Part shown: positions 37,656 to 54,228 of the stretch, one piece after another
How the letters are laid out: the number at the start of each line of letters is the position of its first letter
How positions within the stretch are numbered: the stretch's first letter is position 1
Assembly (NCBI GenBank): GCA_035934015.1
Contig: DASYYH010000016.1
Coordinates: forward strand, 1 to 64,000
DNA length: 64,000 nucleotides
From: Candidatus Acidiferrales bacterium
GTDB lineage: Bacteria; Acidobacteriota; Terriglobia; Acidiferrales; UBA7541
Direction: 5' to 3'
Program-made: the position numbers and the translations under genes
Notes under the pieces: generated by a model
What the model saw: the letters and a program-made list of their open reading frames with translations, nothing else
What the model was told of the DNA's origin: nothing
Databases searched by the model: none

Positions 37656-40600
37656 CTAGTCGCCCGCCGGTTCCTCGGCCGGCACGTGCACACGCGAGCG
37701 CAGCCGCGTAGCGATCCAGTCGAAGGCTACATAGACGACGGGCGTGGTATAGAGCGTGAGTAGCTGGCTCAGCAAGAGTCCGCCGACGATCGTGATCCCC
37801 AGAGGACGCCGCAATTCTGAACCCATCCCCGTACCCAGAGCGAGAGGCAAACCGCCGAGTAGGGCAGCCATGGTCGTCATCATGATCGGGCGAAAGCGGA
37901 GCAGACATGCTTCATAAATCGCGTCGAGCGCCGGCTTCTCCTCCTTGCGTTCCGCTTCCAGCGCAAAGTCGATCATCATGATGGCGTTTTTCTTCACAAT
38001 GCCGATCAGCAGAATCAATCCAATCAAAGCAATGACGCTGAATTCCTCGTGGCAAATCAGCAGCGCAAGGATAGCGCCCACGCCGGCGGAAGGCAGTGTG
38101 GAAAGGATCGTGATCGGGTGGATGTAGCTCTCATAGAGCACGCCCAGCACGATGTAAACCACGATGACTGCGGCGAGAATCAGCAGCGGCTCGTTCGAGA
38201 GCGAGGCCAAAAAGGAAGCGGCGGTTCCTTCAAAGTTCGTCTGAATACTAGCCGGCATATTGAGCTCTTTTTTGGCCGCATTGATGGCATTCACGGCATC
38301 GCCCAGTGAAACCCCGGGAGCAAGGTTAAAAGACAGGGTCACAACCGGAAACTGGCCCTGATGGTTGATCGTCAGAGGCACGGTCGACTGCACGACGCGC
38401 GTAAACGCGCTCAACGGAACTTCTTGGCCCGTCACGGAATTCACGAAAATATTTTTAAGCGCATCCGGGTCTTGCTGGAAATTGGGCAGCACTTCTTCGA
38501 CGACATGATACTGATTCAGTTGCGTGAAGATCGTCGAGACCTGGCGTTGTCCAAACGCGTCGTAAAGTGTATCGTCAATAGTTTGTGGCAGAAGACCAAG
38601 GCGTGAAGCCGTATCGCGGTCAATGACGAGAGTCGCCTGCAAACCTTCGTTTTGCTGATCGCTCGCCACATCGGTCACCTGCGGCAGCGTCTTCATCTTT
38701 GCAATCATGCGCGAAGTCCACTGCGCCAGTTCATTGGCATCAACATCTTCCATGCTGTATTGAAATTCCGTCCGGCTCACGCGGTCTTCAACGGTTAAAT
38801 CCTGTACGGGCTGCATGTATAGCGTAATTCCATCCACTGGATTCAGTTGCGGCTCCAGGCGCGTAATCACGTCGGAAGCCGAAACGTAGTTGCGGTCCGC
38901 GATCGGCTTCAGATTAATCTGAACGCGCCCGCTGTTGAGCGTGATGTTCGTTCCATCAACACCAATGAAAGAAGAAAGACTCTCCACCGCGGGGTCCTGC
39001 AAAATGATGTGATCAAGGGCTTGCTGCCGTTGCGCCATCGCCTGAAAGGAGACATCCTGAGGCGCTTGGGAGATTCCCATAATGACGCCTGTATCCTGCA
39101 CGGGGAAAAAACCTTTGGGAACGTATATGTAAAGCAAAATCGTCGCCACCAGCGTGCCGAACGTAACAATTAGCGTCGTGGTGCGATATCGCAAGACAAC
39201 TTTCAGCGTGCCGCCATAGTATTCGATCGCCGTGTTGAACCAGCGCTCCGACGTGCGGTAAAACCAACTCTGCTGACTTTCCGGTTTATGTTTCAGCAAT
39301 TGGGCGCACATCATCGGCGTCAGCGTCAGCGAAACAAATGCAGAGACGAGAATAGTCACAGCGAGGGTCACAGCAAACTCGCGGAAGAGCCGCCCGACGA
39401 CGTCGCCCATGAAGAGCAACGGGATCAGAACAGCGATCAACGAAACCGTCAGCGATAGAATCGTGAAGCCGATTTGCTCGGCGCCCTTCAATGCTGCCTG
39501 CAAAGGTGGGTCGCCCGCCTCGATATAGCGGCTTATATTCTCAATCATCACGATGGCATCATCGACCACGAAGCCAGTCGAGATCGTTAAAGCCATTAAC
39601 GTGAGATTGTTCAGACTATAGCCGAGCAGGTACATCACCCCGAACGTGCCCACAATCGACAACGGAACCGCAATGCTGGGAATAACCGTTGCGGACACGC
39701 TGCGCAAAAACAAAAAAATCACCAGCACAACGAGAACAACTGTGATTGCGAGCTCAAATTGGACGTCCGTGACCGATGCACGGATCGTAATCGTGCGGTC
39801 CGTCAGTGGCGTAACCTGGATCGATGACGGAAGGGACGCTTGCAAAAGTGGCAGAAGCGCTTTGATTCGATCTGTTACACCGATGATATTCGCCCCCGGT
39901 TGCCTCTGAATATTCAAGATCACAGCCGGGTTTTCGTTGGCCCACGCCGCTTCCTGCACGTTCTCTGCACCATCGACAACCGTGGCAACGTCGCTCAAGC
40001 GAACAGGTGCGCCATTTCGATAGGCAATGATTAGCGGCTTGTAGTCATTGCTGGAGAGAAGCTGGTCATTGTCGGCAATCGTGTACTGCTGGCGTGGCCC
40101 TTCGAAGTTGCCTTTGGCCTCATCTACATTGGCCTGTCCCAGCGCGGTGCGCAGATCTTCCAGGCTCAGCCCGTATGCGGCGAGTTCCGTCGGATTCGCT
40201 TGAATTCGCACGGCGGGGCGCTGGCCGCCGCTGATGCTGACGAACCCAACGCCCGACAACTGCGAAATCTTCTGTGCCAGATTCGTGTCCGCGAGATCCT
40301 CTACTTTAGAAAGCGGCAATGTTTTCGACTGCAATGCCAGCGTCAGGATAGGCGTGTCTGCCGGGTTAATCTTGCTGTAGATCGGGGGGTTCGGCAGAGC
40401 TTTGGGGAGCAACTGCATCGCCGCATTGATGGCCGCCTGTACTTCTTGCTCCGCCACATCAATATTCAAATCGAGAACAAATTGCAGCGTGACGATCGAG
40501 CTTCCAAACGAACTCGTCGAGGTCATCTGGTTTAGCCCGGGGATCTGTCCGAACTGGCGTTCGAGGGGCGCGGTCACAGATGACGCCATCACATCCGGAC

Positions 40601-40763
40601 TCGCGCCCGGGTAAAAGGTTTCTACCTGAATTGTTGGATAATCCACTTCTGGAAGAGCGGAAACGGGCAACTGCTTATATGCGACCAAGCCAGCGAGCAT
40701 CAGCCCGACCATGAGCAGACTGGTCGCGACCGGCCGCAGAATGAACGGCCGAGACGGGCTCAT
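37656..40763 (-). CDS. mdtB: RND multidrug efflux permease, MdtB type
   Basis: A 1035-residue RND pump subunit. N-terminal pattern [40 protein letters not shown] and [20 protein letters not shown] matches MdtB. The proton-relay pair lies in [13 protein letters not shown], and both periplasmic docking/porter loops are of full length. Its ATG overlaps the mdtA stop by 4 bp, and mdtC follows after 3 bp, so the three proteins are made from one transcript. It differs enough from the MdtC copy to be an old duplication. Confidence 0.95.
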
Positions 40764-42109
40764 TTTTGTTGCCCTCCGTGACGGCCGTGAGGACGCGCGG
40801 CCTGCGGTTGCGAATTGGGAGCCGCCGGAGCTTTTCCCGCCTGAGACTGGGATGGGCGTCCGTTCGGCGTCCCCGCGGGACCTCCGGTCGCATTGCGCGC
40901 AACAATCTTGCTGCCGTCAGAGAGTTTATCCAGCCCATCGGTCACCACGCGTTCGCCGGGTTGAACCCCGCTGTCGATGGCGACATCGTTGTCCGTTGTC
41001 AGACCCACTTTTACGGCGCGGACATTGACAACATTGTTTTCGTTGACCACGTACACGTATGTCCCATTCGGCCCGCGTTGCACTGCCGCCGCAGGAATGA
41101 CTGTAACGTTATGCTCCGTGTTAACCAGCAAATGAATGTTGACGAACTGATTCGGAAACAGAACATTATTTTCGTTGTTAAAAACAGCTTTGAGCTTATA
41201 TGTCCCCGTCGTCGTATCAATCTGGTTGTCCATCGTCTGCAAAAAACCACTCTCGATCTTCGTCGTGTCATCGCGATCGTAGGCGTCCACCGGCAAATGA
41301 TCGCGAGATCGCAGCTCTTTATAGACCTCCGGCAACTCATCCTGCGGGAGCGTAAAGATCACCGCGATCGGCTGCAGTTGGGTGATAACGATCAGGCCGG
41401 TCGTATCCGTTGCGTGGACCACGTTTCCAGGATCCACGAGTCGCAGCCCGATGCGCCCGCTGATTGGCGCGGTGACGTGGCAATAGACCAACTGTAGCTT
41501 GGCGCTGTCAATGGACGCTTGGTCCGACTTAATCGCTCCTTGCGCCTGGTTCATCACAGAGGTTTGTGTATCGAGCTGTTGCTTCGGAATCACACCTTCC
41601 CCGGCGAGTGTGGTGTAGCGATTGTAATCAAGGGTCGCGTCCTTGAGCGCAGCTTCATCCTTGGCAAGTTGCCCCTCGGCTTGTTCGAGTTGAACCTGGT
41701 ATGGCCGTGGGTCAATTTCAACGAGCGCTTCGCCCTTGTTTACAAACTGACCTTCCCTGAAATACACGGTCATGATCTGACCGTCGACTCGCGTGTGCAC
41801 GGTCACTGTATAGAACGCAGTGACAGTCCCCAGCCCGGTAAAGTAGACCGGCAAATCGCCTGTGCGCGCCGTTGCCACGACAACCGGAACAGCCTGGTTG
41901 CCCATCCGCGCACGAGCTGCTGTGCTTGTTTTTGCCGATTGTTGCTGCGCCACCCCGCGGAAATACCACGCCGCAAGACCGAGAATGGCGATAATCAACA
42001 CCCAGGCCCACCAATGATGTTTCTTCCGCGGGGAAAGGGCGAGTTCCTGCGAAAGAGGAATTTCGCGGCTGTCGCCCGTTTGCGGCTCGATTGTCTGGCG
42101 CGAACCCAT
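40760..42109 (-). CDS. mdtA: RND efflux periplasmic adaptor, MdtA type
   Basis: The membrane-fusion protein that links the MdtB/MdtC pump to an outer-membrane channel. The 449 residues start with a cytosolic leader and one anchor helix ([18 protein letters not shown]), then half-motif [20 protein letters not shown] of the lipoyl domain, a helical hairpin (about 150-200), second lipoyl half [20 protein letters not shown], a beta-barrel domain and a Pro/Gln/His-rich tail (about 410-449). The ATG is preceded by AGGAG. It faces the oxalate decarboxylase gene across a 354-bp divergent region. Confidence 0.95.
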
Positions 42110-42463
42110 TGCTCAGCTCCTGGAGGATATGGCCGCACGGCCACTCCTGGCTCCCTGTGGGATACCGCGCATCAGTTGTGGGCTACAACCGAGGTAGCGG
42201 CCCATAAATCACAGGCCTCAAGATTACGTTCGGGAATTAGACGCCTTCTTACATCGCCTGGTTTCCCTGGGCAATACGTACACTTTCGTCCGGCAACCGG
42301 ATCGGAAGATTTCTTCTGCGCGAATCTTACCAGTTCGGCCGTCCCGCGGCCATATCCGCGAATATCTGTGCACGGAAAGCGAAAAAATAATCTAAACTCC
42401 AAAACGGACTGGCAGAAAGCCGCCCTGATTCAAGTCCGAAAAAAGCTGGGAAAGGATCAAACA
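42110..42463. other. Divergent non-coding region between mdtA and the oxalate decarboxylase gene
   Basis: 354 bp with no credible gene. It must hold promoters for both directions. The last 80 bp before the decarboxylase ATG are AT-richer (AAAAAATAATCTAAACT at about 42384-42400) and may contain its -10 region, but no strong -35 is visible. A short hairpin TGGCCG-CA-CGGCCA lies near 42130-42143 next to mdtA. An open frame that runs through from inside mdtA is antisense to it and not real. Confidence 0.5.
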
Positions 42464-43735
42464 ATGGGTAAGGACCGAACGGATTCGGAACACAGATTAT
42501 CACGCCGCACCCTTCTTGGCGCGCTGCCCGCAACCGCCGCGGGCCTCGCATTTGATTCTCTTGCGGCAAAAGCGGCTTCCCAGGACTCAAAGGAAGACGT
42601 CATCAATGGGGAACACGGCCAAAGCGCAACGAATCCTATCGGCCCGGCAAATGCCGCGCTGAGCCAGCAAAATCCCGACTCCGTGATGCCTCCGCCCACG
42701 GATCACGGCGACGTTCCTGCGTTCAAGTACCCCTTTGCTTTTTCTCATAAACGCACGCAAGAAGGTGGATGGGCGCGCCAAGTGACCGTTGAAGATTTTC
42801 CCATCTCAAAATCCATCGCTGGCGTCAACATGCGTCTGGGATCTGGAGGCATTCGCGAACTTCACTGGCATAAAGCCGCAGAATGGGCCTTCATGCTTTA
42901 CGGCAGCGCGCGCATCACGGCAATCGACACCGGCGGCCAGTCGTTTGTTGACGATGTTCACGAAGGCGACATCTGGAATTTTCCTTCCGGTATTCCGCAT
43001 TCCATTCAGGGCCTTGCGCCGGATGGCTGCGAATTTCTTTTGGTCTTTGATGATGGCGCATTCTCCGAATACAACACGACATCGCTCACCGATTTACTTG
43101 CACACACTCCGCCCGGTCCTCTGGCGAAAAGTTTCGGAATCCCTCGCGAGGCGCTCTCCTCAATTCCCGGTTACGAGCGTTACATCTTTCAAGGAAAGCT
43201 TCCTGGTCCGCTTGAGGCTGATCAGCGCGCGGCGACCGGCCGCATGGGTCGTTCCAGACCATTCGATTTCCGCCTCACGCAAATGGAAGCCAGCAAGCGA
43301 ACGCGCGGAGGCGAAGTGCGCGTTGTGGACTCGAAGAATTTCCCTGCCTCGACGACAATCGCCGCCGCGCTTGTGACCGTTCACCCCGGCGGCATTCGAG
43401 AATTGCATTGGCATCCGAATGCCGACGAGTGGCAGTACTACATCAGGGGCAATGCGCGAATGACTGTCTTCGCCGCTGGCGGTCGCGCTCGCACTATGGA
43501 TTTTCAGAGAGGCGACGTGGGGTATATTGAGAAGACGCTTCCTCACTACATCGAGAACACAGGCACAACGGATTTGTCGTTTCTGGAAATGTTTCGCAGC
43601 GACCACTACGAAGATATTTCTTTATCGAACTGGCTGTCGCACACGCCGTCACAGTTGGTGATGCAGCACCTCGGTTTTGACAAGGCCACGCTCAACGCGA
43701 TTCCAAAAGACGAAGTCGCAATCATGCCGCTCTAG
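42464..43735 (+). CDS. Tat-exported bicupin oxalate decarboxylase
   Basis: Mn-dependent conversion of oxalate to formate and CO2. 423 residues with a twin-arginine signal (LSRRTLLGALPATAAGLAF, 12-30). Cupin 1 ligands: His134, His136, Glu140, His179 (GGIRELHWHKAAEW, GIPHS). Cupin 2 ligands: His315, His317, Glu322, His361. The lid carries Glu202 in SEYNTT, aligning with the catalytic Glu of SENST in the Bacillus enzyme, so it should decarboxylate rather than oxidise. ATG 42464 has AAAGGA upstream. No formate-using gene is next to it. It is convergent with an exported aminotransferase-like gene and shares no operon. The substrate is inferred from family residues. Confidence 0.92.
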   Translation: MGKDRTDSEHRLSRRTLLGALPATAAGLAFDSLAAKAASQDSKEDVINGEHGQSATNPIGPANAALSQQNPDSVMPPPTDHGDVPAFKYPFAFSHKRTQEGGWARQVTVEDFPISKSIAGVNMRLGSGGIRELHWHKAAEWAFMLYGSARITAIDTGGQSFVDDVHEGDIWNFPSGIPHSIQGLAPDGCEFLLVFDDGAFSEYNTTSLTDLLAHTPPGPLAKSFGIPREALSSIPGYERYIFQGKLPGPLEADQRAATGRMGRSRPFDFRLTQMEASKRTRGGEVRVVDSKNFPASTTIAAALVTVHPGGIRELHWHPNADEWQYYIRGNARMTVFAAGGRARTMDFQRGDVGYIEKTLPHYIENTGTTDLSFLEMFRSDHYEDISLSNWLSHTPSQLVMQHLGFDKATLNAIPKDEVAIMPL

Positions 43736-43807: not shown

Positions 43808-45106
43808 TCACGCCGCTTTGTAGTTTTTCTTGAACTCGTCGAACTTTTCAAGAAATCTGTCGATATCCGCCTTTTGCAAATAGTACGGCGTCGAAAGCCG
43901 GATCTTGTAGGGCGCGCCGCCGCGAATGCGAATTTTGCTCTGCTCCCAAAGGGCTTTTTCAATGTCGCCAATCTGAACCGGTGGCGTGTTTACGGAAACG
44001 ATGGCGCAGCGGTATTGCGCGTCGAAGCCGGTGACGTTTTCTGCGCCGCGCTGCTGCATCTGCGACCAAATATAATTGTTCAAGTCGCGATTGCGCTTCT
44101 CGATGCGCGCCATGCCGATCTGGTTGGCAAATTCGATGGAGGCGCGCAGGCCCGCAAGAGAGGCGACGTTGGAAGAGCCGAGGCGTTGGAAACGCTCAGC
44201 GCGAATCTTGGGGTCGTCCCAGCCCGCAGTAGTCACTGTGCTCCACATCCGGTCAATCATCTCGTCACGCACGTAAAGAAAACCTGTGCCCTTCGGCGCC
44301 ATCAGCCATTTGTGCGGACTTGAACCGTACATATCGCAGCCAATGTCTTTGATATTGAGCTGCATCATGCCCGTAACCTGTGCGCCATCCACCATCGACA
44401 CCAGGCCTTTTCTTTTCGCCAGCGCGCAAATTTGCTTCACGGGCTGAATGACGCCTGTCGTCGTGGTGATGTGGCTCGTGAAGAGCACGCGTGTGCGCGG
44501 CGTAATGGCGTCGTTGATACGATTGAGAAGATCGTCGGTGTTTGTGAGCGGCTGAGGAATCTGGTATTGCTTGACGACAATGCCGTAGCGCTTGGCGCGC
44601 AGTTTCCACGGCTCCTGGCCGCTCGGATGCTCCTGATCGCTCATGAGTACTTCGTCGCCGGGATTCATGTCCAGTCCATTGGCCATGAAATTGTTCGCTT
44701 CGGTCGCGTTACGCACAAATGCCAGCTCATCGCGCGTCACGCCGATGAACTGCGCCAGCGGATCGCGGTATTCGTTCCACGGGCCGTAGCCCCAGATAGG
44801 ATAATCCTCGGGGTCGGTCTGCCGCATGGCGTTGGCGGCATGATCCGAGTCGATGACAGCCTTCAACACCGGCAGCGGGCAAGAACCGACCGTCCCATTG
44901 TTCAAATAGACTTCGCCTTCGGGGATGATGAACTGCTGGCGAATCTGCTGCCAATATTCATCTTCGCTTTGATCGAATACTTCGCCGCGCGGCATGGGCG
45001 GCGCGTCAAAATTGAATTGTTCCGCCAGGACGGCGCGGCTCAGAGCGGGCAAGCTCGCGGCGCCCGTGATTGCAAGCGCGCTTTGCAGGAAGCTTCGGCG
45101 ATCCAT
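43808..45106 (-). CDS. Exported class V aminotransferase (isopenicillin-N-epimerase-like)
   Basis: A fold-type I PLP protein of 432 residues with an export signal that begins MDRRSFLQSALAITG and ends near RAVLAEQ; the RR-S-F pattern suggests Tat export, as expected for a cofactor-loaded enzyme. Family markers: VYLNNGTVGSCPLPVLKAV, FVRNATEANNFMANGL, DGAQVTGM and PLP lysine in GSSPHKWLMAPKG, then GSSNVASLAGL and a C-terminal RGGAPYKIRLSTPYYLQKAD. CefD-like members act as epimerases, desulfurases or lyases, so the reaction cannot be set. ATG 45106 has GGGAGG upstream; longer frames are not homologous. Convergent with the oxalate decarboxylase, divergent from a cupin. Confidence 0.88.
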   Translation of the reverse strand: MDRRSFLQSALAITGAASLPALSRAVLAEQFNFDAPPMPRGEVFDQSEDEYWQQIRQQFIIPEGEVYLNNGTVGSCPLPVLKAVIDSDHAANAMRQTDPEDYPIWGYGPWNEYRDPLAQFIGVTRDELAFVRNATEANNFMANGLDMNPGDEVLMSDQEHPSGQEPWKLRAKRYGIVVKQYQIPQPLTNTDDLLNRINDAITPRTRVLFTSHITTTTGVIQPVKQICALAKRKGLVSMVDGAQVTGMMQLNIKDIGCDMYGSSPHKWLMAPKGTGFLYVRDEMIDRMWSTVTTAGWDDPKIRAERFQRLGSSNVASLAGLRASIEFANQIGMARIEKRNRDLNNYIWSQMQQRGAENVTGFDAQYRCAIVSVNTPPVQIGDIEKALWEQSKIRIRGGAPYKIRLSTPYYLQKADIDRFLEKFDEFKKNYKAA

Positions 45107-45253
45107 CTTTGTTCCTCCCTCCCTCGTGAGATTGCGATGAGCGAATGCGGGGATGATATGCGTACGAGGCGCGAATAACAAGAGATTCGCTTCCGGCGGC
45201 GCCTGCATTAAACTATCTGGCCAGAAAACAGTACGAAGAGAGAAAAACCGTTC

Positions 45254-45613
45254 ATGCCGACATTACTTTCACACCCAACGCGTATTGAAGCAGCAGGCAA
45301 CAAACCGAAAATCATCGAAGAATTTATCGGCAGAGTGAACTCACAGACGTCGGCGCTCAGTGTGGCGCACATGCGAAGCCCGGCGGGATGGGTCGAGCCG
45401 GGGCAAACGCCAGAGTTCGACGAATACACCGTCGTTCTCAAGGGCATCTTGCGCGTCTCCCATCGCGGCGGAACGATCGATGTGAGCGTCGGACAGGCGG
45501 TCATCGCCCATCGCGGCGAATGGGTGCAATACTCGACGCCGGGCGGCGCAGAGTACATTGCCATCTGCCTGCCCGCTTTCACACTGGAGACGGTTCACAG
45601 GGATGCGCAATAA
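45254..45613 (+). CDS. Small single-domain cupin
   Basis: 119 residues forming one cupin barrel. Motif 1 region: FDEYTVVLKGILRVSHRGG; motif 2 region: AVIAHRGEWVQYSTPGGAEYIAICLP. The usual first His-x-His pair is replaced, with few metal-binding residues left, so it may bind an organic ligand rather than act as a metal enzyme, as in EutQ/YlbA-like or sensing cupins. First gene of a five-gene co-directional run with a lyase-like protein, acyl-CoA dehydrogenase, CoA-transferase and MaoC protein; gap to the next gene 30 bp. Exact role unknown. Confidence 0.8.
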   Translation: MPTLLSHPTRIEAAGNKPKIIEEFIGRVNSQTSALSVAHMRSPAGWVEPGQTPEFDEYTVVLKGILRVSHRGGTIDVSVGQAVIAHRGEWVQYSTPGGAEYIAICLPAFTLETVHRDAQ

Positions 45614-45643
45614 ATCTGGGCCGTAAAGAATGAAGGATTCCAG

Positions 45644-46987
45644 ATGAAACGATCGCTCACAGCCGAATCGCTGAAAGATGTGACACAACGCCTCGCGCAA
45701 GCTCAAGCTGCGCTCGCGAAACGCTACCCTGGCGAAACGAGCCGCCGTCAGCCCGTGCACGTCCTTTATGGCGGCGCGCATCTTTTCCGGGCGGACATCG
45801 TCCAGCGCATGAGAGAAAAAGCGATTCAAGCGCTCGATGAGTTCGCTCCTGACTATGTGACGTTCGGGCAGGCTCTTGGCCTTCCTCGTTCCGAGATCAT
45901 TTATGCCCGCGTGCGGGAAAAGCTGCAGCGCGAGCCTGTGGAAGATTACGGCATAGACTTTGAAGACGGATATGGCCATCGCTCTGACAGCGAAGAAGAC
46001 GCGCACGCGCGCTCAGCCGCTGAGCACCTCGCTGTAGCACAAAACCAATCCAGCTTGCCGCCGTTCGTCGGCATCCGCATCAAGCCATTGAGTGAAGAGT
46101 GTCGCGAGCGAGCCTTGCGCACGCTGGACATTTTTCTCACTGCGCTTGTCGAAAAAACCGGCGGTGCGCTGCCATCCAATTTCTCTGTGACGCTGCCGAA
46201 AATCTCGATGACGGAAGAAGCCGCGACGCTCGTGGACGCGCTGGAAATGCTCGAAGTCAAGCTTGGGCTTCCCGTCGGAAGCGTTCATGTTGAGTTGATG
46301 ATCGAAACGGCGCGAGCCATTTCGAACGAGAATGGCGAAAACAATCTGCTGCAACTTGTCTCCGCCGCGCGGGGCCGGTGCGTCGCCGTGCATTTCGGCC
46401 CATATGACTACACGGCTAGCCTGGGCGTCATCGCCGCATACCAGAACCTGCAGCATCCAGCTTGCGACTTTGCTCGCAGCGCGATGCAAGTAGCGCTCAC
46501 CGACACGGGTGTGCGCCTGGCCGACGGGCCAACGATGCTCATACCGATTGCGCCACATCGCGCAACGAATGACGGCTCGCCGCTTACCGCTCAACAAGCC
46601 GACGAAAATCAAAAAGCTGTCCGCGATGCGTGGCGCCTGCACTATGCGAATATCCGCCGCTCTCTTGCGGCGGGCTTCTATCAGAGCTGGGATTTGCATC
46701 CGGCCCAGCTCCCCGCACGTTATGCCGGCGTTTATGCTTTTTTCCTCGAAGAACTCGACGCGGCTGCGGAGCGGCTGAAGAATTTCATCGCCAAGGCAAT
46801 GCAGGCCACGCGCGTCGGCGCTGTCTTCGACGACGCGGCAACGGGTCAGGGTCTGTTGAACTATTTCGTGCGTGCGGTGAACTGCGGTGCGATTTTGGAG
46901 TCGGAGGCGGAGCGCTCAACCGGCCTGACTTCCGCGGAGCTGCGCTCAGGGTCTTTTTTGAAGATTCTCGCGGGCCGCGACAAATAA
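45644..46987 (+). CDS. HpcH/HpaI-like aldolase/CoA-ester lyase family protein
   Basis: 447 residues of TIM-barrel type, longer than usual CitE-like lyases. Visible are VHVLYGGAHLFRADIVQRM at the N-terminus, DYGIDFEDGYGHRSDSEED with an acidic pair fit for Mg2+, GIRIKPLSEECRERAL, VTLPKISMTEEAATLVDALE, and VHVELMIETARAI, the Glu being the usual metal ligand, then HFGPYDYTASLG. It belongs to the DUF6986 branch of the phosphoenolpyruvate/HpcH superfamily by pattern. With the downstream dehydrogenase, CoA-transferase and hydratase genes, a terminal C-C cleavage of a hydroxyacyl-CoA or hydroxyacid is likely (inference); the substrate is unknown. Confidence 0.8.
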   Translation: MKRSLTAESLKDVTQRLAQAQAALAKRYPGETSRRQPVHVLYGGAHLFRADIVQRMREKAIQALDEFAPDYVTFGQALGLPRSEIIYARVREKLQREPVEDYGIDFEDGYGHRSDSEEDAHARSAAEHLAVAQNQSSLPPFVGIRIKPLSEECRERALRTLDIFLTALVEKTGGALPSNFSVTLPKISMTEEAATLVDALEMLEVKLGLPVGSVHVELMIETARAISNENGENNLLQLVSAARGRCVAVHFGPYDYTASLGVIAAYQNLQHPACDFARSAMQVALTDTGVRLADGPTMLIPIAPHRATNDGSPLTAQQADENQKAVRDAWRLHYANIRRSLAAGFYQSWDLHPAQLPARYAGVYAFFLEELDAAAERLKNFIAKAMQATRVGAVFDDAATGQGLLNYFVRAVNCGAILESEAERSTGLTSAELRSGSFLKILAGRDK

Positions 46988-47075
46988 TCCGCGGGCTTTG
47001 CGGGTTCCCTGTCGACGAAATAACTTTCCTGGGTGTAAAGTCGTTTGCTGTTTCTCGGCGCGTAATGCGCGGTCT

Positions 47076-48245
47076 ATGAACGAAATCAATCCACGTTTCC
47101 ACGAGTACGCTGAGCTTCGCCGCCCGGTTCGTGAACTGTGCGCGCAATTTACGAGCGAATACTGGCAAAGGCTGGAAGAAAAGTCGGCCTATCCCGAAGA
47201 ATTCGTCAAGGCGCTCACGGAAGCAGGCTGGCTGGCCGCATTGATTCCCGAAGAATACGGTGGCTCAGGCCTTGGCGTGACGCAAGCTTCCGTGATTCTC
47301 GAAGAGATCAACCGCTCCGGCGCCAATTCCGGCGCTTGTCACGCACAGATGTACATCATGGGCACGCTGCTTCGCCACGGGTCGCAAGAGCAAAAGCGCG
47401 CTTATTTGCCGAAAATCGCCTCAGGGGAATTGCGCCTGCAATCCTTCGCCGTCACAGAACCAACGACCGGCACGGACACAGCAAGCACAAAAACATTCGC
47501 AGAGTGGAAAGGCGATCGCTACATCGTCAACGGCCAAAAAGTGTGGATTTCGCGCATGCAGCACACGGACCTGATGCTGCTTCTGGCGCGAACGGCGCCG
47601 ATGAACCAAGTGCAGCGGCGCACGGACGGCTTGTCCGTTTTCCTCGTGGATCTTCGCGCGAAAAACGGCGGACAGATGCGCGTACGGCCGATCCGCAACA
47701 TGGTCAATCACGAGACGGATGAAGTGTTTTTCGACAACTTCGAAATCCCCGCCTCAAATTTGATCGGCGAAGAAGGAAAAGGGCTGCGATACATTCTCGA
47801 CGGAATGAACGCGGAGCGCATTCTCATTGCCGCCGAATGTATCGGTGACGGTTATTGGTTTATCGAGAAGGCCCGCAAGTACGCCAGCGAACGGATTGTT
47901 TTCAACCGGCCCATCGCGCAAAATCAGGGCGTGCAGTTTCCTATCGCACGGGCCTACGCCAACCTGCTGGCGGCAGATTTGATGCGCTACGAGGCCGCCG
48001 GCGAATTCGACAGAGGCCTTCCCTGCGGTGCCTCAGCGAACCTTGCAAAACTTCTCGCAGCGGACGCGTCATGGGAAGCAGCGAACGTGTGCCTGCAAAC
48101 CCACGGCGGCTTCGGCTTCGCCGCAGAGTACGACGTCGAGCGAAAATTCCGCGAGACACGTCTCTATCAAGTGGCGCCGATCTCCACGAATATGATTCTT
48201 TCTTATCTTGCGGAGCACGTGCTGGAAATGCCGCGCTCGTTTTGA
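47076..48245 (+). CDS. Acyl-CoA dehydrogenase
   Basis: FAD enzyme that introduces an alpha,beta double bond in an acyl-CoA. 389 residues. Seen: N-terminal helical domain with GWLAALIPEEYGGSGLG, beta domain with FAVTEPTTGTDTAS and GQKVWISRMQ, substrate loop, and C-terminal domain with QNQGVQFPIARAYANL, LQTHGGFGFAAEYDVERKFRET (FAD/CoA contacts and likely base region). ATG 47076 is at the normal N-terminus; an extension to 46998 is not conserved. It lies 88 bp after the lyase-like gene and 37 bp before the CoA-transferase gene. Chain length and branching of the substrate cannot be told. Confidence 0.95.
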   Translation: MNEINPRFHEYAELRRPVRELCAQFTSEYWQRLEEKSAYPEEFVKALTEAGWLAALIPEEYGGSGLGVTQASVILEEINRSGANSGACHAQMYIMGTLLRHGSQEQKRAYLPKIASGELRLQSFAVTEPTTGTDTASTKTFAEWKGDRYIVNGQKVWISRMQHTDLMLLLARTAPMNQVQRRTDGLSVFLVDLRAKNGGQMRVRPIRNMVNHETDEVFFDNFEIPASNLIGEEGKGLRYILDGMNAERILIAAECIGDGYWFIEKARKYASERIVFNRPIAQNQGVQFPIARAYANLLAADLMRYEAAGEFDRGLPCGASANLAKLLAADASWEAANVCLQTHGGFGFAAEYDVERKFRETRLYQVAPISTNMILSYLAEHVLEMPRSF

Positions 48246-48282
48246 ATTGGATTTGAATCATGAAGGGAAATCGCGTCCGAAA

Positions 48283-49446
48283 ATGAGCGTTTCTGAGCCG
48301 CACAATTCTCTTCCATTAAGCGGTCTTCGGGTTGTGGCGCTCGAGCAAGCCGTGTCTGCGCCCTTCTGCTCGCGGCAGCTGGCGGATCTGGGAGCGGACG
48401 TCATCAAGGTCGAGCGCCCGGACCGCGGCGATTTCGCGCGCGACTATGATGGCGCGCTCAATGGGCTCTCCGCGTATTTTGCCTGGCTGAATCGCGGCAA
48501 GCGCAGCATCGTGCTCGACTTGAAACAGGGTTGCGATCTTGCGATTCTTTCAAAACTGACCGAGCGCGCCGATGTTTTCCTTCACAATTTGATTCCCGGG
48601 GCCGTCGAGCGATTTGGTTTCGGTCATGACGATCTCGCCAGACGTTGTCCGCGGCTGATCTGGTGTGGCATCTCCGGCTACGGGCCCGATGGTCCTTATC
48701 GCGACAAGAAAGCTTACGATCTACTCGTGCAAGCGGAGTCCGGCGTTATCAGCTTGACCGGCAGCGCAGATGCGCCCGCAAAAGTCGGCATCTCCATCGC
48801 CGACATCGCTTCCGGTTTCTACGCTTACTCTTCCATTCTGGCCGCGCTGCTGGGCCGTGGGCCCAGCGGGCGCGGAGAACGAATCGACATCTCGATGCTC
48901 GAATGCCTGACGGAGTGGACGACGCCAGCTCTCTACGCGTGGTACGGCGCCGGGCAAGTTCCATTGCGCGAAGGAATGCGCCATAACATGATTGTTCCTT
49001 ACGGCGGATACGTTTGTGCCGATGGCGTCGTGAACCTCGCAATTCAGAACGATCGCGAGTGGCGCCGCTTGTGTGGAGAAGTCCTCGATCAACCGGCTCT
49101 TGCCGACGACGCTCGTTTCGCGACGAACCGAGACCGGTTGCGCAATCGCGCCGAGCTCGAAACGCTGATCGAAAATATTTTTCGCGAGCAGACGAAGGAC
49201 GAAGTGATTGCGAGGCTCGACCGTGCGGGAATCGCGAATGCGGCGGTGAACGACATGCCGGCGGTGATGCGGCATGCTCAGCTTGCCGCTCGCAGTCGTT
49301 GGACCACGGCGGATTCTCCTGTTGGAACGATTCCGGCGCTTGTGCCGCCGCACAATTTGGCGCACGTACAGGCGCGCATGGGGGCCGTGCCCGCACTCGG
49401 CGAACACACCCAGGAAATTCTCGCGGAAATCGAAAGCGAACACTGA
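48283..49446 (+). CDS. CaiB/BaiF family III CoA-transferase
   Basis: Transfers CoA from one acid to another through an Asp-anhydride. 387 residues with LSGLRVVALEQAVSAPFCSR, LADLGADVIKVERPDRGDFARDY, NRGKRSIVLDLK, GISGYGPDGPYRDKKAYDLLVQAESG with catalytic Asp146, and GERIDISMLECLTEWTTP. The residues that mark formyl-CoA:oxalate transferases are not evident. ATG 48283 fits the family; the upstream in-frame run overlaps the dehydrogenase gene. The operon setting suggests it activates the acid that the dehydrogenase, hydratase and lyase then process. Confidence 0.93.
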   Translation: MSVSEPHNSLPLSGLRVVALEQAVSAPFCSRQLADLGADVIKVERPDRGDFARDYDGALNGLSAYFAWLNRGKRSIVLDLKQGCDLAILSKLTERADVFLHNLIPGAVERFGFGHDDLARRCPRLIWCGISGYGPDGPYRDKKAYDLLVQAESGVISLTGSADAPAKVGISIADIASGFYAYSSILAALLGRGPSGRGERIDISMLECLTEWTTPALYAWYGAGQVPLREGMRHNMIVPYGGYVCADGVVNLAIQNDREWRRLCGEVLDQPALADDARFATNRDRLRNRAELETLIENIFREQTKDEVIARLDRAGIANAAVNDMPAVMRHAQLAARSRWTTADSPVGTIPALVPPHNLAHVQARMGAVPALGEHTQEILAEIESEH

Positions 49447-49473
49447 AGCAGCGTTTACGCAGGGAGAACTTTA

Positions 49474-49968
49474 ATGATGGATCGAGAGCAAGGCGGACCA
49501 TGTTATGAGGATTTCGAAGTAGGGATGGCACTGCGGCATTCCGTCGGCCGGACGGTCACGCAGGCGGACAACATCTGGTTCTCGCTGCTTACGGCGAACA
49601 CCAACCCGATTCACATCGACGCACACTATTCCGCGCAAACGGAATTCGGCAAGCCGCTTATGAATTCGACGTTCACATTGGCGCTGGTCACGGGGCTTTC
49701 CGTGAGCGACGTTTCGCAAAACGCGATCAATCTTGGGTGGGATGAAGTTCGCATGCCAGCGCCAGTCTTCGAAGGCGACACAATTTATGCGCAAACGGAA
49801 GTGCTCAGCAAACGCGAATCGAAATCGCGCCAGCACATGGGAATCGTGGAAGTGAAAACGACGGGATTCAAGCAGGACGGCACGGTCGTGATGCAGTTCA
49901 AACGAACGATCCTGGTCTACAAACGCGGAAAAGCGCCCAAGCCGCCGCAGCCGTCAATCAAAGACTGA
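49474..49968 (+). CDS. MaoC-like (R)-specific enoyl-CoA hydratase family protein
   Basis: 164-residue single hot-dog domain. The active-site stretch reads FSLLTANTNPIHIDAHYSAQ: His47 of the hydratase-2 motif is kept, but the catalytic Asp position is Asn42, as in some mesaconyl/itaconyl-CoA hydratase-like relatives. Other markers are EFGKPLMNSTFTLALVTGLS, PAPVFEGDTIYAQTEVLSKR and a basic, Pro-rich tail. It follows the CoA-transferase by 27 bp and ends the five-gene operon. It probably hydrates the enoyl-CoA made by the dehydrogenase, giving the hydroxyacyl-CoA for the lyase (inference). ATG 49474 or 49477. Confidence 0.88.
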   Translation: MMDREQGGPCYEDFEVGMALRHSVGRTVTQADNIWFSLLTANTNPIHIDAHYSAQTEFGKPLMNSTFTLALVTGLSVSDVSQNAINLGWDEVRMPAPVFEGDTIYAQTEVLSKRESKSRQHMGIVEVKTTGFKQDGTVVMQFKRTILVYKRGKAPKPPQPSIKD

Positions 49969-50024: not shown

Positions 50025-50903
50025 TCATTTTTCGTGCTCCAGCAGGGCACGCGCATTTTTGAACTCTTCGCGTTTATTCGCATCCAACTTCGGATAACTC
50101 AGATTCAATTCTTCGAGAGCATCGACGATGGCTTCTGCGACGACGAGTCGCGTGAACCATTTGTGGTCCGCAGGCACGACATACCACGGAGCAAAAGCTG
50201 TGCTGGTTTTCTGAATGATCTCTTCGTAGACACGCATGAAGTCGCCCCAGCATTCGCGGTCTTTGACGTCATTTACGGAAAACTTCCAGTGCTTCTCCGG
50301 CTCGTCGAGGCGAGCGAGGAAGCGTTGTTTTTGTTCTTTCTTCGAAACATTCAGGAAAAACTTGCGAACGACGATCCCGTTGCGGCGGAGATAGCGTTCG
50401 AAGGCGACAATGTCTTCGAAGCGCTCCTCCCAGACTTTTGGCGTGACCAGAGTCGGATCGAGTTTTTCCTGTTTGAGGAAATGCGGATGCACGCGAACCA
50501 CGAGCACTTCTTCATAGTACGAGCGGCTGAAGATCCCGATGTTGCCGCGCGCGGGCAAACGTTGCGTGGCGCGCCAGAGGAAATCGTGATTGAGTTCCTC
50601 TTCCGACGGGACCCCGAAGTGATGGACATGACAGCCTTCCGGGTTCACGCCCGACATGACATGCTTGATGGTGCTGTCTTTTCCGGCAGCATCCATCCCT
50701 TGAAAAATCAAAAGCAGCGCCCAGCGGTCCTGAGCGATGAGCTTGTCCTGCAAATCATTCAGACGGGAGATACCGCGATCGAGAGTTTCCTGCGCTTTCT
50801 CCTTTGCATCGAAACCGAGAGTTTCTTCAGGAGAGAAACCCTTGAGCCGAAATTTGCCGCCGTCGGTAATTTTGAACGGCTTCGCAAATTCTCCCGGCTT
50901 CAT
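50025..50903 (-). CDS. ppk2: Polyphosphate kinase 2 family protein
   Basis: PPK2 enzymes phosphorylate nucleoside mono- or diphosphates with polyphosphate. 292 residues: Walker A LIFQGMDAAGKDSTIKHVMS, GVNPEGCHVHHFGVPS, DFLWRATQRLPARGNIGIF, the Walker B-like SRSYYEEVLVVRVHP, lid helix QRFLARLDEPEKHWKFSVND and APWYVVPADHKWFTRLVVAE. A single kinase domain of standard size. Whether it belongs to the AMP (class II), ADP/GDP (class I) or dual (class III) group is not decided here. Convergent with the MaoC gene, 56 bp apart; the amidohydrolase gene upstream on the same strand ends 39 bp before it. Confidence 0.95.
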   Translation of the reverse strand: MKPGEFAKPFKITDGGKFRLKGFSPEETLGFDAKEKAQETLDRGISRLNDLQDKLIAQDRWALLLIFQGMDAAGKDSTIKHVMSGVNPEGCHVHHFGVPSEEELNHDFLWRATQRLPARGNIGIFSRSYYEEVLVVRVHPHFLKQEKLDPTLVTPKVWEERFEDIVAFERYLRRNGIVVRKFFLNVSKKEQKQRFLARLDEPEKHWKFSVNDVKDRECWGDFMRVYEEIIQKTSTAFAPWYVVPADHKWFTRLVVAEAIVDALEELNLSYPKLDANKREEFKNARALLEHEK

Positions 50904-52722: not shown

Positions 52723-54153
52723 TCAGGACAAAGGGGCCGATTGCGATTTGCTCTTGGATTCGCCTGACGCAATGGCGAGCATGGCCTGCAAGCTGCACGT
52801 CACGTCGGCGTCCGTGGTTGCCCACGAAGAGACGCTTATCCGCATAGCTCTGCGCCCTTTCCAAAGCGTGCCGCCGCACCAGCACGTTCCCTCTTCCTGA
52901 ATGGCAGCGATGATGCGCGCGGTGGATTCGCCGTCGCCGAAAGAAACAAGGACTTGGTTCAGCACGACATCGTTCAGCACTTCGTATCCGGCTGCGCGAA
53001 AGCCTTCGGCAAATTTCGCCGCATGCTGGCAAGTACGCTCAATCAAATCCGCGACGCCCTCTGTGCCAAGGGAGCGCAAAGCGGCCCAGATTTCTATCGC
53101 GCGGGCGCGGCGCGAGGATTCCGGCCCCCACTGCATGGGTTCGCGCTTGCCGGCAGGATCGGGATAATAAGACGCAGTGATCGACATGGCATGGCGCAAT
53201 GCCTCCCGCTGACGCACGATGGCGATGCCGCTATCCTGGGGCACATTGAGCCACTTGTGCGCATCGGTGGCCCAAGAGTCCGCTCGGGCGACTCCATCAA
53301 CCAGTTGCTTGCGCGCGGGACTGGCGGCGGCCCAGAGGCCGAAAGCGCCATCGACGTGAACCCAGGCGTCCATTGCGCCGGCGATGTCGCAGATTTCGTC
53401 AATCGGATCGCAAGCGCCGGTGTTCACGTTGCCGGCCTGAACGCAGATAATCATAGGTCGTTTCAGCCGGGGTATTCCCGAGGGACACATGCGGCCTTGA
53501 GAGTCCGCCGGGACAACAAGCACGCGGCTGCGGCCAAAGCCGAGCAGCGCCAGCGCTTTCCACATTGTCGCGTGGACTTCTTCGCCAACAACGACAGTGA
53601 CGGGCGGCGCGCCAAACATGCCTTCGCTTTGGACGTCCCAACCAGACTTGAGCAGCGCGGCATAGCGCGCGGCAGCGAGAGCGGTCACATCCGCCATCTG
53701 CGTGCCAGTGACGAAGGCGCCGCCGGAACGCGGAGGGAGGCCGAAGAGCTCCAGCACCCATGCGAGAACAACGTCCTCCAAATATGCAGAGACAGGCGAA
53801 AGATCGAAGAGACAGGCATTCTGATCCCAAACATCGGCAAGCCAATGTGCGGCAACGGTCACAGGCAACGCGCCTCCGATGACTCCGCCGAAAAAACGAG
53901 ATCCCGCACTGGCAACCGTGGCCGGGGAGCCGACTTCGTCGAGGAGTTTCAGGAGGAAGCGGGGATCTTCTCCGTGCGACGACAGAGGCCCGCCCAGCGC
54001 AGCAAGGTTATGGAGCGCGCCGGCAGGCACACCTACATGGCGTTCACGAATTGTTTCGAGATAGCGGCTCGCGCGCGAGGCCGCATCCTTCAAGAGTTCC
54101 CCATACTGATTTTCCGAACGAAAGTCGAGAGAGCACAGCGGCACCGAATCCAT
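52723..54153 (-). CDS. PLP-dependent amino-acid decarboxylase (group II)
   Basis: 476 residues of the aromatic-amino-acid/glutamate decarboxylase group. Seen: an N-terminal segment with GSRFFGGVIGGALPVTVAAH, cofactor region FVTGTQMADVTALAAARYAA, HATMWKALALLGFGR (ring-stacking His), MDAWVHVDGAFGLWAA (Asp to the pyridine N), and the PLP lysine in SWATDAHKWLNVPQDSG (Lys300). The substrate is not readable; close patterns occur in tyrosine, DOPA and other decarboxylases. It is divergent from a CGNR regulator with operator-like repeats between, and its -35/-10 lie within that region. Confidence 0.9.
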   Translation of the reverse strand: MDSVPLCSLDFRSENQYGELLKDAASRASRYLETIRERHVGVPAGALHNLAALGGPLSSHGEDPRFLLKLLDEVGSPATVASAGSRFFGGVIGGALPVTVAAHWLADVWDQNACLFDLSPVSAYLEDVVLAWVLELFGLPPRSGGAFVTGTQMADVTALAAARYAALLKSGWDVQSEGMFGAPPVTVVVGEEVHATMWKALALLGFGRSRVLVVPADSQGRMCPSGIPRLKRPMIICVQAGNVNTGACDPIDEICDIAGAMDAWVHVDGAFGLWAAASPARKQLVDGVARADSWATDAHKWLNVPQDSGIAIVRQREALRHAMSITASYYPDPAGKREPMQWGPESSRRARAIEIWAALRSLGTEGVADLIERTCQHAAKFAEGFRAAGYEVLNDVVLNQVLVSFGDGESTARIIAAIQEEGTCWCGGTLWKGRRAMRISVSSWATTDADVTCSLQAMLAIASGESKSKSQSAPLS

Positions 54154-54170: not shown

Positions 54171-54228
54171 AACCTGTATAATGAAAGTTTACAGGTTACA
54201 TAGTACGATTTGACTGGAAACCTGTCAA
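54171..54228. promoter_or_regulatory. Divergent promoter/operator between the PLP decarboxylase and the CGNR regulator
   Basis: Three copies of an AACCTGT half-site: AACCTGTA (54171-54178) faces TACAGGTT (54190-54197) as a perfect 8-bp inverted repeat, and AACCTGTC is at 54219-54226. On the reverse strand, -35 TTGACA (54223-54228), a 17-bp spacer and -10 TACTAT (54200-54205) form a strong decarboxylase promoter. One half-site overlaps its -35, and the inverted repeat covers the start of transcription. TATAAT at 54177-54182 may be the -10 of the forward regulator gene. The CGNR protein is the obvious candidate to bind, with autoregulation. Confidence 0.7.

Follow-up and report, generated by a model that had tools for sequence, protein, structure and literature searches.

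A candidate C5-dicarboxylate operon with a proposed DUF6986 lyase

Among described systems, the coenzyme A (CoA)-dependent itaconate/methylsuccinate route of Pseudomonas (P. aeruginosa) and Cupriavidus (C. necator) comprises Ict, Ich, Ccl, the methylsuccinyl-C4-CoA dehydrogenase Mcd and the methylsuccinate isomerase Msi, the last of which belongs to the MmgE/PrpD family; the cluster is naturally absent from Pseudomonas putida (Gonner et al. 2025, PMC12290011). A second group, the malyl-CoA/beta-methylmalyl-CoA lyases, is typified by the Rhodobacter enzyme, with the catalytic set E44/D45, R76, E141, D168 and a lid-domain D299; the Glu/Asp pair holds Mg2+-bound waters, and these lyases are promiscuous, with the Chloroflexus enzyme also cleaving citramalyl-CoA and the Rhodobacter enzyme forming it (PMC3832036). 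Here we analyze a gene group in a 64,000-nucleotide stretch of DNA, referred to as the window (contig DASYYH010000016.1, our contig C16, of assembly GCA_035934015.1), from a soil-dwelling Candidatus Acidiferrales bacterium of the Acidobacteriota, whose genome measures 3.37 Mb and is 98.6% complete. An initial annotation of the window had claimed five co-directional genes forming one catabolic operon, with a reaction order of CoA transfer, oxidation, hydration and carbon-carbon cleavage. Indeed, five open reading frames (ORFs) lie at 45254-49968, all on the plus strand, and both the reading as one catabolic operon and the reaction order are supported. The genes encode a cupin, a protein of the domain family DUF6986, and what we call the trio: an acyl-CoA dehydrogenase, a family III CoA-transferase and a MaoC hydratase (Table 1).

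Like the P. aeruginosa/C. necator cluster, the window operon joins a CoA-transferase, an acyl-CoA dehydrogenase, a hydratase and a lyase (PMC12290011); unlike that cluster, it has a DUF6986 protein in place of Ccl, a short RipB-type hydratase and an extra cupin, and no MmgE isomerase. With the RipABC itaconate cluster of Y. pestis it shares a RipB-like MaoC protein, but that cluster has three genes, with no dehydrogenase, a different CoA-transferase, and RipC in the place of DUF6986 (PMC12290011).

Based on the predicted functions of these genes, we lean, if only slightly, towards reading the operon as one for the catabolism of a methyl-branched C5 dicarboxylate (methylsuccinate, and probably also itaconate/mesaconate) to acetyl-CoA and pyruvate via citramalyl-CoA, with all substrates and products being those that we infer. 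The CoA-transferase would use succinyl-CoA as donor to form the CoA ester of the acid, the dehydrogenase would convert methylsuccinyl-CoA to mesaconyl-CoA, the MaoC enzyme would hydrate mesaconyl-CoA to citramalyl-CoA, and the DUF6986 enzyme, predicted to be Mg2+-dependent and malyl-CoA-lyase-like, would cleave citramalyl-CoA into acetyl-CoA and pyruvate. In other words, the first three steps would be those of a known module, and the DUF6986 lyase would stand in for the usual CitE-type lyase without being its orthologue. The metal-bound product of lyases of this superfamily is a 2-oxo acid, and the hydroxyacyl-CoA substrate must therefore be a malyl-type ester; with a dehydrogenase acting in front of it, the starting acid must be succinate-like, methylsuccinate being the simplest choice.

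Table 1. Features of the operon in the window, with the evidence for each.
Feature	Position	Strand	Basis
Cupin, small single-domain, 119 aa	45254..45613	+	ORF; weak EutQ/Cupin_2 match; kept in sister species at 81%
DUF6986 protein, 447 aa, proposed acyl-CoA C-C lyase (last step)	45644..46987	+	PF22484, PF03328, AlphaFold2 model, fold match, catalytic residues
Lyase codons 100-112 (EDYGIDFEDGYGH)	45941..45979	+	E107/D108 pair; G103 in place of family Arg/His
Acyl-CoA dehydrogenase, 389 aa, proposed methylsuccinyl-CoA dehydrogenase (Mcd-type)	47076..48245	+	Pfam Acyl-CoA_dh N/M/1
Family III (CaiB-type) CoA-transferase, 387 aa, proposed succinyl-CoA:methylsuccinate/itaconate CoA-transferase	48283..49446	+	PF02515
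MaoC (hot-dog) hydratase, 164 aa, RipB/Ich-like, proposed mesaconyl/itaconyl-CoA hydratase	49474..49968	+	MaoC E=4.2e-24; RipB_Ich best NCBIfam model

The genes are closely spaced, with gaps of 30, 88, 37 and 27 bp in gene order. The best start of the CoA-transferase is the ATG at 48283 and that of the dehydrogenase the ATG at 47076, although translation could also begin at an in-frame TTG at 46998, which would shorten the 88-bp gap to 10 bp. Both flanking genes (43808-45208, ending 45 bp upstream, and 50025-50903, starting 56 bp downstream) are on the minus strand, and the unit is therefore closed at exactly five genes. A scan of the operon region for promoters and terminators gave signals at or below chance level. 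In a sister species of the same genus (genome G566), the first three genes and the beginning of the transferase gene stand in identical order beside the same upstream genes; its contig stops within the transferase gene, so that the MaoC position lies beyond its end. Between the two species, protein identity is 81% for the cupin, 85% for the lyase, 91% for the dehydrogenase and 86% for the CoA-transferase, with ratios of nonsynonymous to synonymous substitution rates (dN/dS) of 0.16, 0.11, 0.06 and 0.11, respectively; the four compared genes are thus under purifying selection. Because the order is kept and dN/dS is low, we consider the operon more than a chance arrangement. The family call of the cupin is weak (EutQ, 21.1 bits against a threshold of 21), and we raise a role as sensor or accessory protein only as a question, without assigning one.

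The proposed lyase resembles malyl-CoA lyases in predicted fold and catalytic residues

The description of the lyase as a long variant from an uncharacterised branch proved apt: the protein matches DUF6986 (PF22484) over profile positions 1-407 of 408 (E=3.6e-166, 553.5 bits against a threshold of 27). It also matches HpcH_HpaI (PF03328) at 34.2 bits (gathering threshold 25) and, weakly, the malate-synthase TIM barrel. Among NCBIfam models it has no RipC or citE match, and it reaches 38 bits with the haloarchaeal malyl-CoA lyase equivalog NF041626, short of the cut-off of 500. Compared with the CitE-type protein of a relative, identity is 22% over a 176-column stretch, and the window lyase has Lys147 where sampled CitE-type proteins have Asn. 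The AlphaFold2 model (mean predicted local distance difference test score, pLDDT, of 90.9) is predicted to have the TIM-barrel fold of the HpcH/HpaI-CitE superfamily. Its best fold match is the Rhodobacter malyl-CoA lyase 4l9y (Z 28.2, root-mean-square deviation 2.4 over 290 residues), a structure with glyoxylate and propionyl-CoA; this is followed by human CLYBL (Z 27.3), the Chloroflexus/Roseiflexus lyases (26.5-27.0), an (S)-citramalyl-CoA lyase (23.0) and RipC (22.4).

The likeness to the malyl-CoA/beta-methylmalyl-CoA lyases of Rhodobacter and Chloroflexus thus lies in the predicted fold (Z 27-28) and the Glu/Asp, Arg, Glu, Asp catalytic set, while identity over aligned residues is only 18% and the window protein is longer, at 447 residues, than the solved chains of 313-347. 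E107/D108, R145, E221 and D255 correspond to the malyl-CoA lyase catalytic residues; all are covered by the profile alignment and invariant in 127 homologues. The probable counterpart of the lid Asp is one of D396 and D397, both invariant and located in the region of that residue. At seven positions that at least 85% of relatives conserve, the window and the sister lyase have both changed. One position, residue 103, is Arg in 120 and His in 7 of the 127 homologues and Gly in the window and sister proteins only. Lying on one strand with D105, two residues ahead of it, this position is expected to point into the barrel.

The dehydrogenase, CoA-transferase and hydratase form a widespread module

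To place the trio, its surroundings were traced from MaoC relatives within the same class and dehydrogenase relatives within the same phylum. Dehydrogenase and MaoC genes recur together, often along with a CoA-transferase, and seven same-class MaoC loci have an HpcH/HpaI (CitE-type) protein of about 300 residues nearby. Three Acidobacteriota genomes (G077, G206 and G362) show the order dehydrogenase, CoA-transferase, MaoC, CitE-type lyase, with MmgE/PrpD in two of the three, and a fourth (G237) has an Ich-type MaoC, dehydrogenase, CitE-type lyase and CoA-transferase. The annotated order in Deinococcus QL22 is MmgE/PrpD, other genes, and then dehydrogenase, CaiB, CoA ester lyase and MaoC, with identities to the window of 75% for the dehydrogenase and 66% each for the transferase and MaoC; in Thermus, the order is CoA ester lyase, fumarase, dehydrogenase, CaiB, MaoC. 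MmgE/PrpD genes lie within or beside several trio loci. Identity of the window dehydrogenase to its Deinococcus, Cupriavidus and Paraburkholderia counterparts is 73-76%, and these stand with MmgE/PrpD, Ich-type MaoC, CaiB or CitE genes; the three Cupriavidus dehydrogenases (74-75%) are all next to an Ich-type MaoC, and those of C. metallidurans and C. campinensis also next to MmgE/PrpD.

The CoA-transferase, the single CoA_transf_3 match in the genome (PF02515, E=2.5e-108), keeps the Asp of its KAYDLLVQ motif. The dehydrogenase has Pro368 at the usual position of the catalytic Glu and keeps Glu247 in an NAER motif, both being conserved in orthologues; the NAER Glu lies at the position of the base in isovaleryl- and long-chain acyl-CoA dehydrogenases. 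We rejected a dead dehydrogenase owing to Pro368, as Glu247 is conserved in all close orthologues. For MaoC, the best NCBIfam model is RipB_Ich, at 196 bits versus 70 for the mesaconyl-C1-CoA hydratase model, and the protein is 56% identical to an annotated Paraburkholderia ripB product. The initial annotation had considered the hydratase odd for having Asn instead of the catalytic Asp, an idea that we dropped: all 30 relatives compared, an annotated RipB/Ich protein among them, have this Asn in the ANTNPIH motif, which makes it the family norm.

The same annotation had put the operon forward as its best candidate for an undescribed pathway, which is not supported, since the trio is a conserved module found elsewhere with a CitE-type lyase and MmgE/PrpD, as in the described route (PMC12290011). 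The check that it proposed, for co-occurrence of the genes in other genomes, comes out positive for the trio, which co-occurs widely, but not for the pairing with DUF6986 or for the cupin, which we found only in this genus; in the other loci searched outside it, the cupin was not seen beside the trio or DUF6986. The pathway class is known. What is new is the lyase with its history, in that a known type of C5-dicarboxylate route would here use an enzyme from a distant subfamily in place of its own lyase. The module also suggests a methylsuccinate/itaconate route in Acidobacteriota, Deinococcus and Thermus, groups absent from the text of PMC12290011.

Two same-family loci (L152 and L154) join a dehydrogenase/MaoC/CitE-type module with a luciferase-like monooxygenase and DUF6282, perhaps for another upstream substrate; L152 also has an ORF that reads like a CoA-transferase subunit.

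DUF6986 elsewhere and the origin of the window copy

For the context of DUF6986 in other genomes, we surveyed the best 80 of 568 relatives as 80 named loci. Allantoicase, allantoinase or urate oxidase genes flank DUF6986 in 52 of the 80 loci, compared with 1 of 31 control loci. Two loci (L062 and L064) show the order allantoinase, allantoicase, 2-oxo-4-hydroxy-4-carboxy-5-ureidoimidazoline (OHCU) decarboxylase, 5-hydroxyisourate (HIU) hydrolase, DUF6986. L096 (Ferruginibacter) and other DUF6986 loci are also uric-acid operons, in which glyoxylate or ureidoglycolate may be the DUF6986 target.

Two further loci among the 80 are ethylmalonyl-CoA clusters. In the Accumulibacter locus (L106), a crotonyl-CoA carboxylase/reductase and a 2-methylfumaryl-CoA isomerase both score above their NCBIfam cut-offs, and a mutase, a dehydrogenase of 558 residues and a mesaconyl-CoA hydratase are also present; the one in Caldilineales (L083) has a crotonyl-CoA carboxylase/reductase, a mutase and a dehydrogenase directly upstream. 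In both, DUF6986 seems to take the place of malyl-CoA lyase, and both proteins lack His250, which is kept in 121 of 127 relatives. The uric-acid and ethylmalonyl-CoA settings have glyoxylate in common. The window arrangement of trio plus DUF6986 occurs in none of the 80 loci, and the sister species is the sole other case found; rare further cases may exist among the 568 relatives beyond these best 80.

In a tree made with a quick method and Shimodaira-Hasegawa-like approximate likelihood ratio (SH-aLRT) support, the window and sister lyases pair with 100% support, on a long branch (0.47). The pair is nested in a clade of 16 rows, likewise at 100%, from their own taxonomic family, and uricase, allantoicase and allantoinase genes adjoin several of its members. 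In two genomes of the same family (G475 and G493), a DUF6986 gene of the uric-acid type is present on one contig and the trio on another. Because the window copy nests on a long branch within this clade, it looks as if the lyase was recruited from the family's own DUF6986 gene. It remains like the DUF6986 proteins of uric-acid/allantoin operons in family membership, at about 47-62% identity, but differs from them in lacking an insert of about 35 residues present in close family relatives, in having Gly for Arg103, and in its operon. In G471, G595, G546, G411 and other genomes of f3, a family of the same class, several DUF6986 matches are short or have in-frame stops, which may indicate decay.

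A broader and more tentative proposal is that DUF6986 proteins could form a widespread family so far unrecognised as acyl-CoA lyases (or as malate-synthase-like proteins), with the condensation or release of a 2-oxo acid as their reaction. In most bacteria they would use glyoxylate from purine breakdown, and one copy would have been recruited here and shifted to pyruvate, perhaps through the change of Arg103 to Gly. The proposal gives a domain of unknown function, present in many bacterial phyla, a role that can be tested: that of a CoA lyase linked to glyoxylate or pyruvate. If true, it would close what may be a gap in bacterial uric-acid operons, whose final, glyoxylate-using enzyme is unassigned in the loci read. 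Among the papers searched, none mentions DUF6986 and none links malyl-CoA lyase with allantoicase.

Weighing the alternatives

Several points weigh against a route to acetyl-CoA and pyruvate. The contexts of DUF6986 indicate glyoxylate, not pyruvate; MaoC misses the RipB_Ich equivalog cut-off (196 versus 340 bits), as do its Deinococcus and Thermus homologues; the dehydrogenase is likened to the Mcd type through Cupriavidus proteins that stand by Ich-type MaoC genes; the operon contains no MmgE isomerase or transporter gene; and all functions are predictions from sequence and modelled fold. On the other side, searches of the genome found no HpcH/HpaI-superfamily match other than the DUF6986 gene, which is therefore, if the trio works, the only visible cleavage candidate. 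Neither a canonical malate synthase nor an isocitrate lyase (searched with a positive control) was found in the genome, which fits products other than glyoxylate. Considering that the hydratase is RipB/Ich-like and that malate synthase was not found, we favor acetyl-CoA and pyruvate.

The same enzymes might instead act on C1 esters (methylsuccinyl-C1-CoA, mesaconyl-C1-CoA and beta-methylmalyl-CoA), with the lyase yielding propionyl-CoA and glyoxylate, the outcome known from the lower part of the ethylmalonyl-CoA pathway. The two DUF6986 genes in ethylmalonyl-CoA clusters point this way, that of Accumulibacter with an isomerase and a mesaconyl-CoA hydratase as well, as does the best fold match, with its glyoxylate and propionyl-CoA; moreover, the genome has two methylmalonyl-CoA mutase genes available for propionyl-CoA. 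Uric-acid breakdown yields glyoxylate, and the uric-acid operons that house most of the DUF6986 loci read are thus also in line with it. However, MaoC is closer to RipB/Ich than to the C1 hydratase model, no malate synthase was found in the genome to consume the glyoxylate, and C4 specificity is reported for the C. necator dehydrogenase (PMC12290011); we regard this route as unlikely.

Less probable still is that DUF6986 is merely a neighbour, acting as a malate synthase or other glyoxylate enzyme, while the trio makes citramalyl-/methylmalyl-CoA for another enzyme or for excretion. DUF6986 is mostly found outside the module, never with the trio in the 80 loci, and its weak malate-synthase match is the only one found in the genome. 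Yet the sister species has the same closed operon and order, CitE-type genes occupy the lyase slot in relatives, and the genome offers no other HpcH/HpaI lyase; as sources of glyoxylate, neither isocitrate lyase nor allantoicase was found in it, the allantoicase search being positive in G475, G493 and G626.

That the substrate is another substituted succinate (longer alkyl or aryl), with the chemistry unchanged, is suggested by module relatives whose extra genes (thiamine pyrophosphate (TPP) enzymes, aldehyde dehydrogenase, luciferase-like monooxygenase, DUF6282) hint at varied upstream substrates and by the lower identity across loci of the CoA-transferase (45-66%) than of the dehydrogenase (62-77%), but the good conservation of dehydrogenase and hydratase across contexts argues for one common core acid; we rate this reading about as low as the previous one.

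Neighbouring genes in the window

The gene directly upstream of the operon (43808-45208) encodes a class-V aminotransferase with a leader resembling a twin-arginine translocation (Tat) signal. Before it, at 42428-43735, lies a two-domain cupin protein, oxalate-decarboxylase-like by appearance, whose leader also resembles a Tat signal; the two proteins are 92% and 85% identical, respectively, to their sister-species copies. Further upstream (37659-42109) are a resistance-nodulation-division (RND) efflux pump of the AcrB family (1035 aa) and its membrane-fusion protein. Downstream of the operon, a pyridoxal-dependent decarboxylase is encoded at 52723-54153, with a CGNR/ABATE regulator on the opposite strand at 54210.

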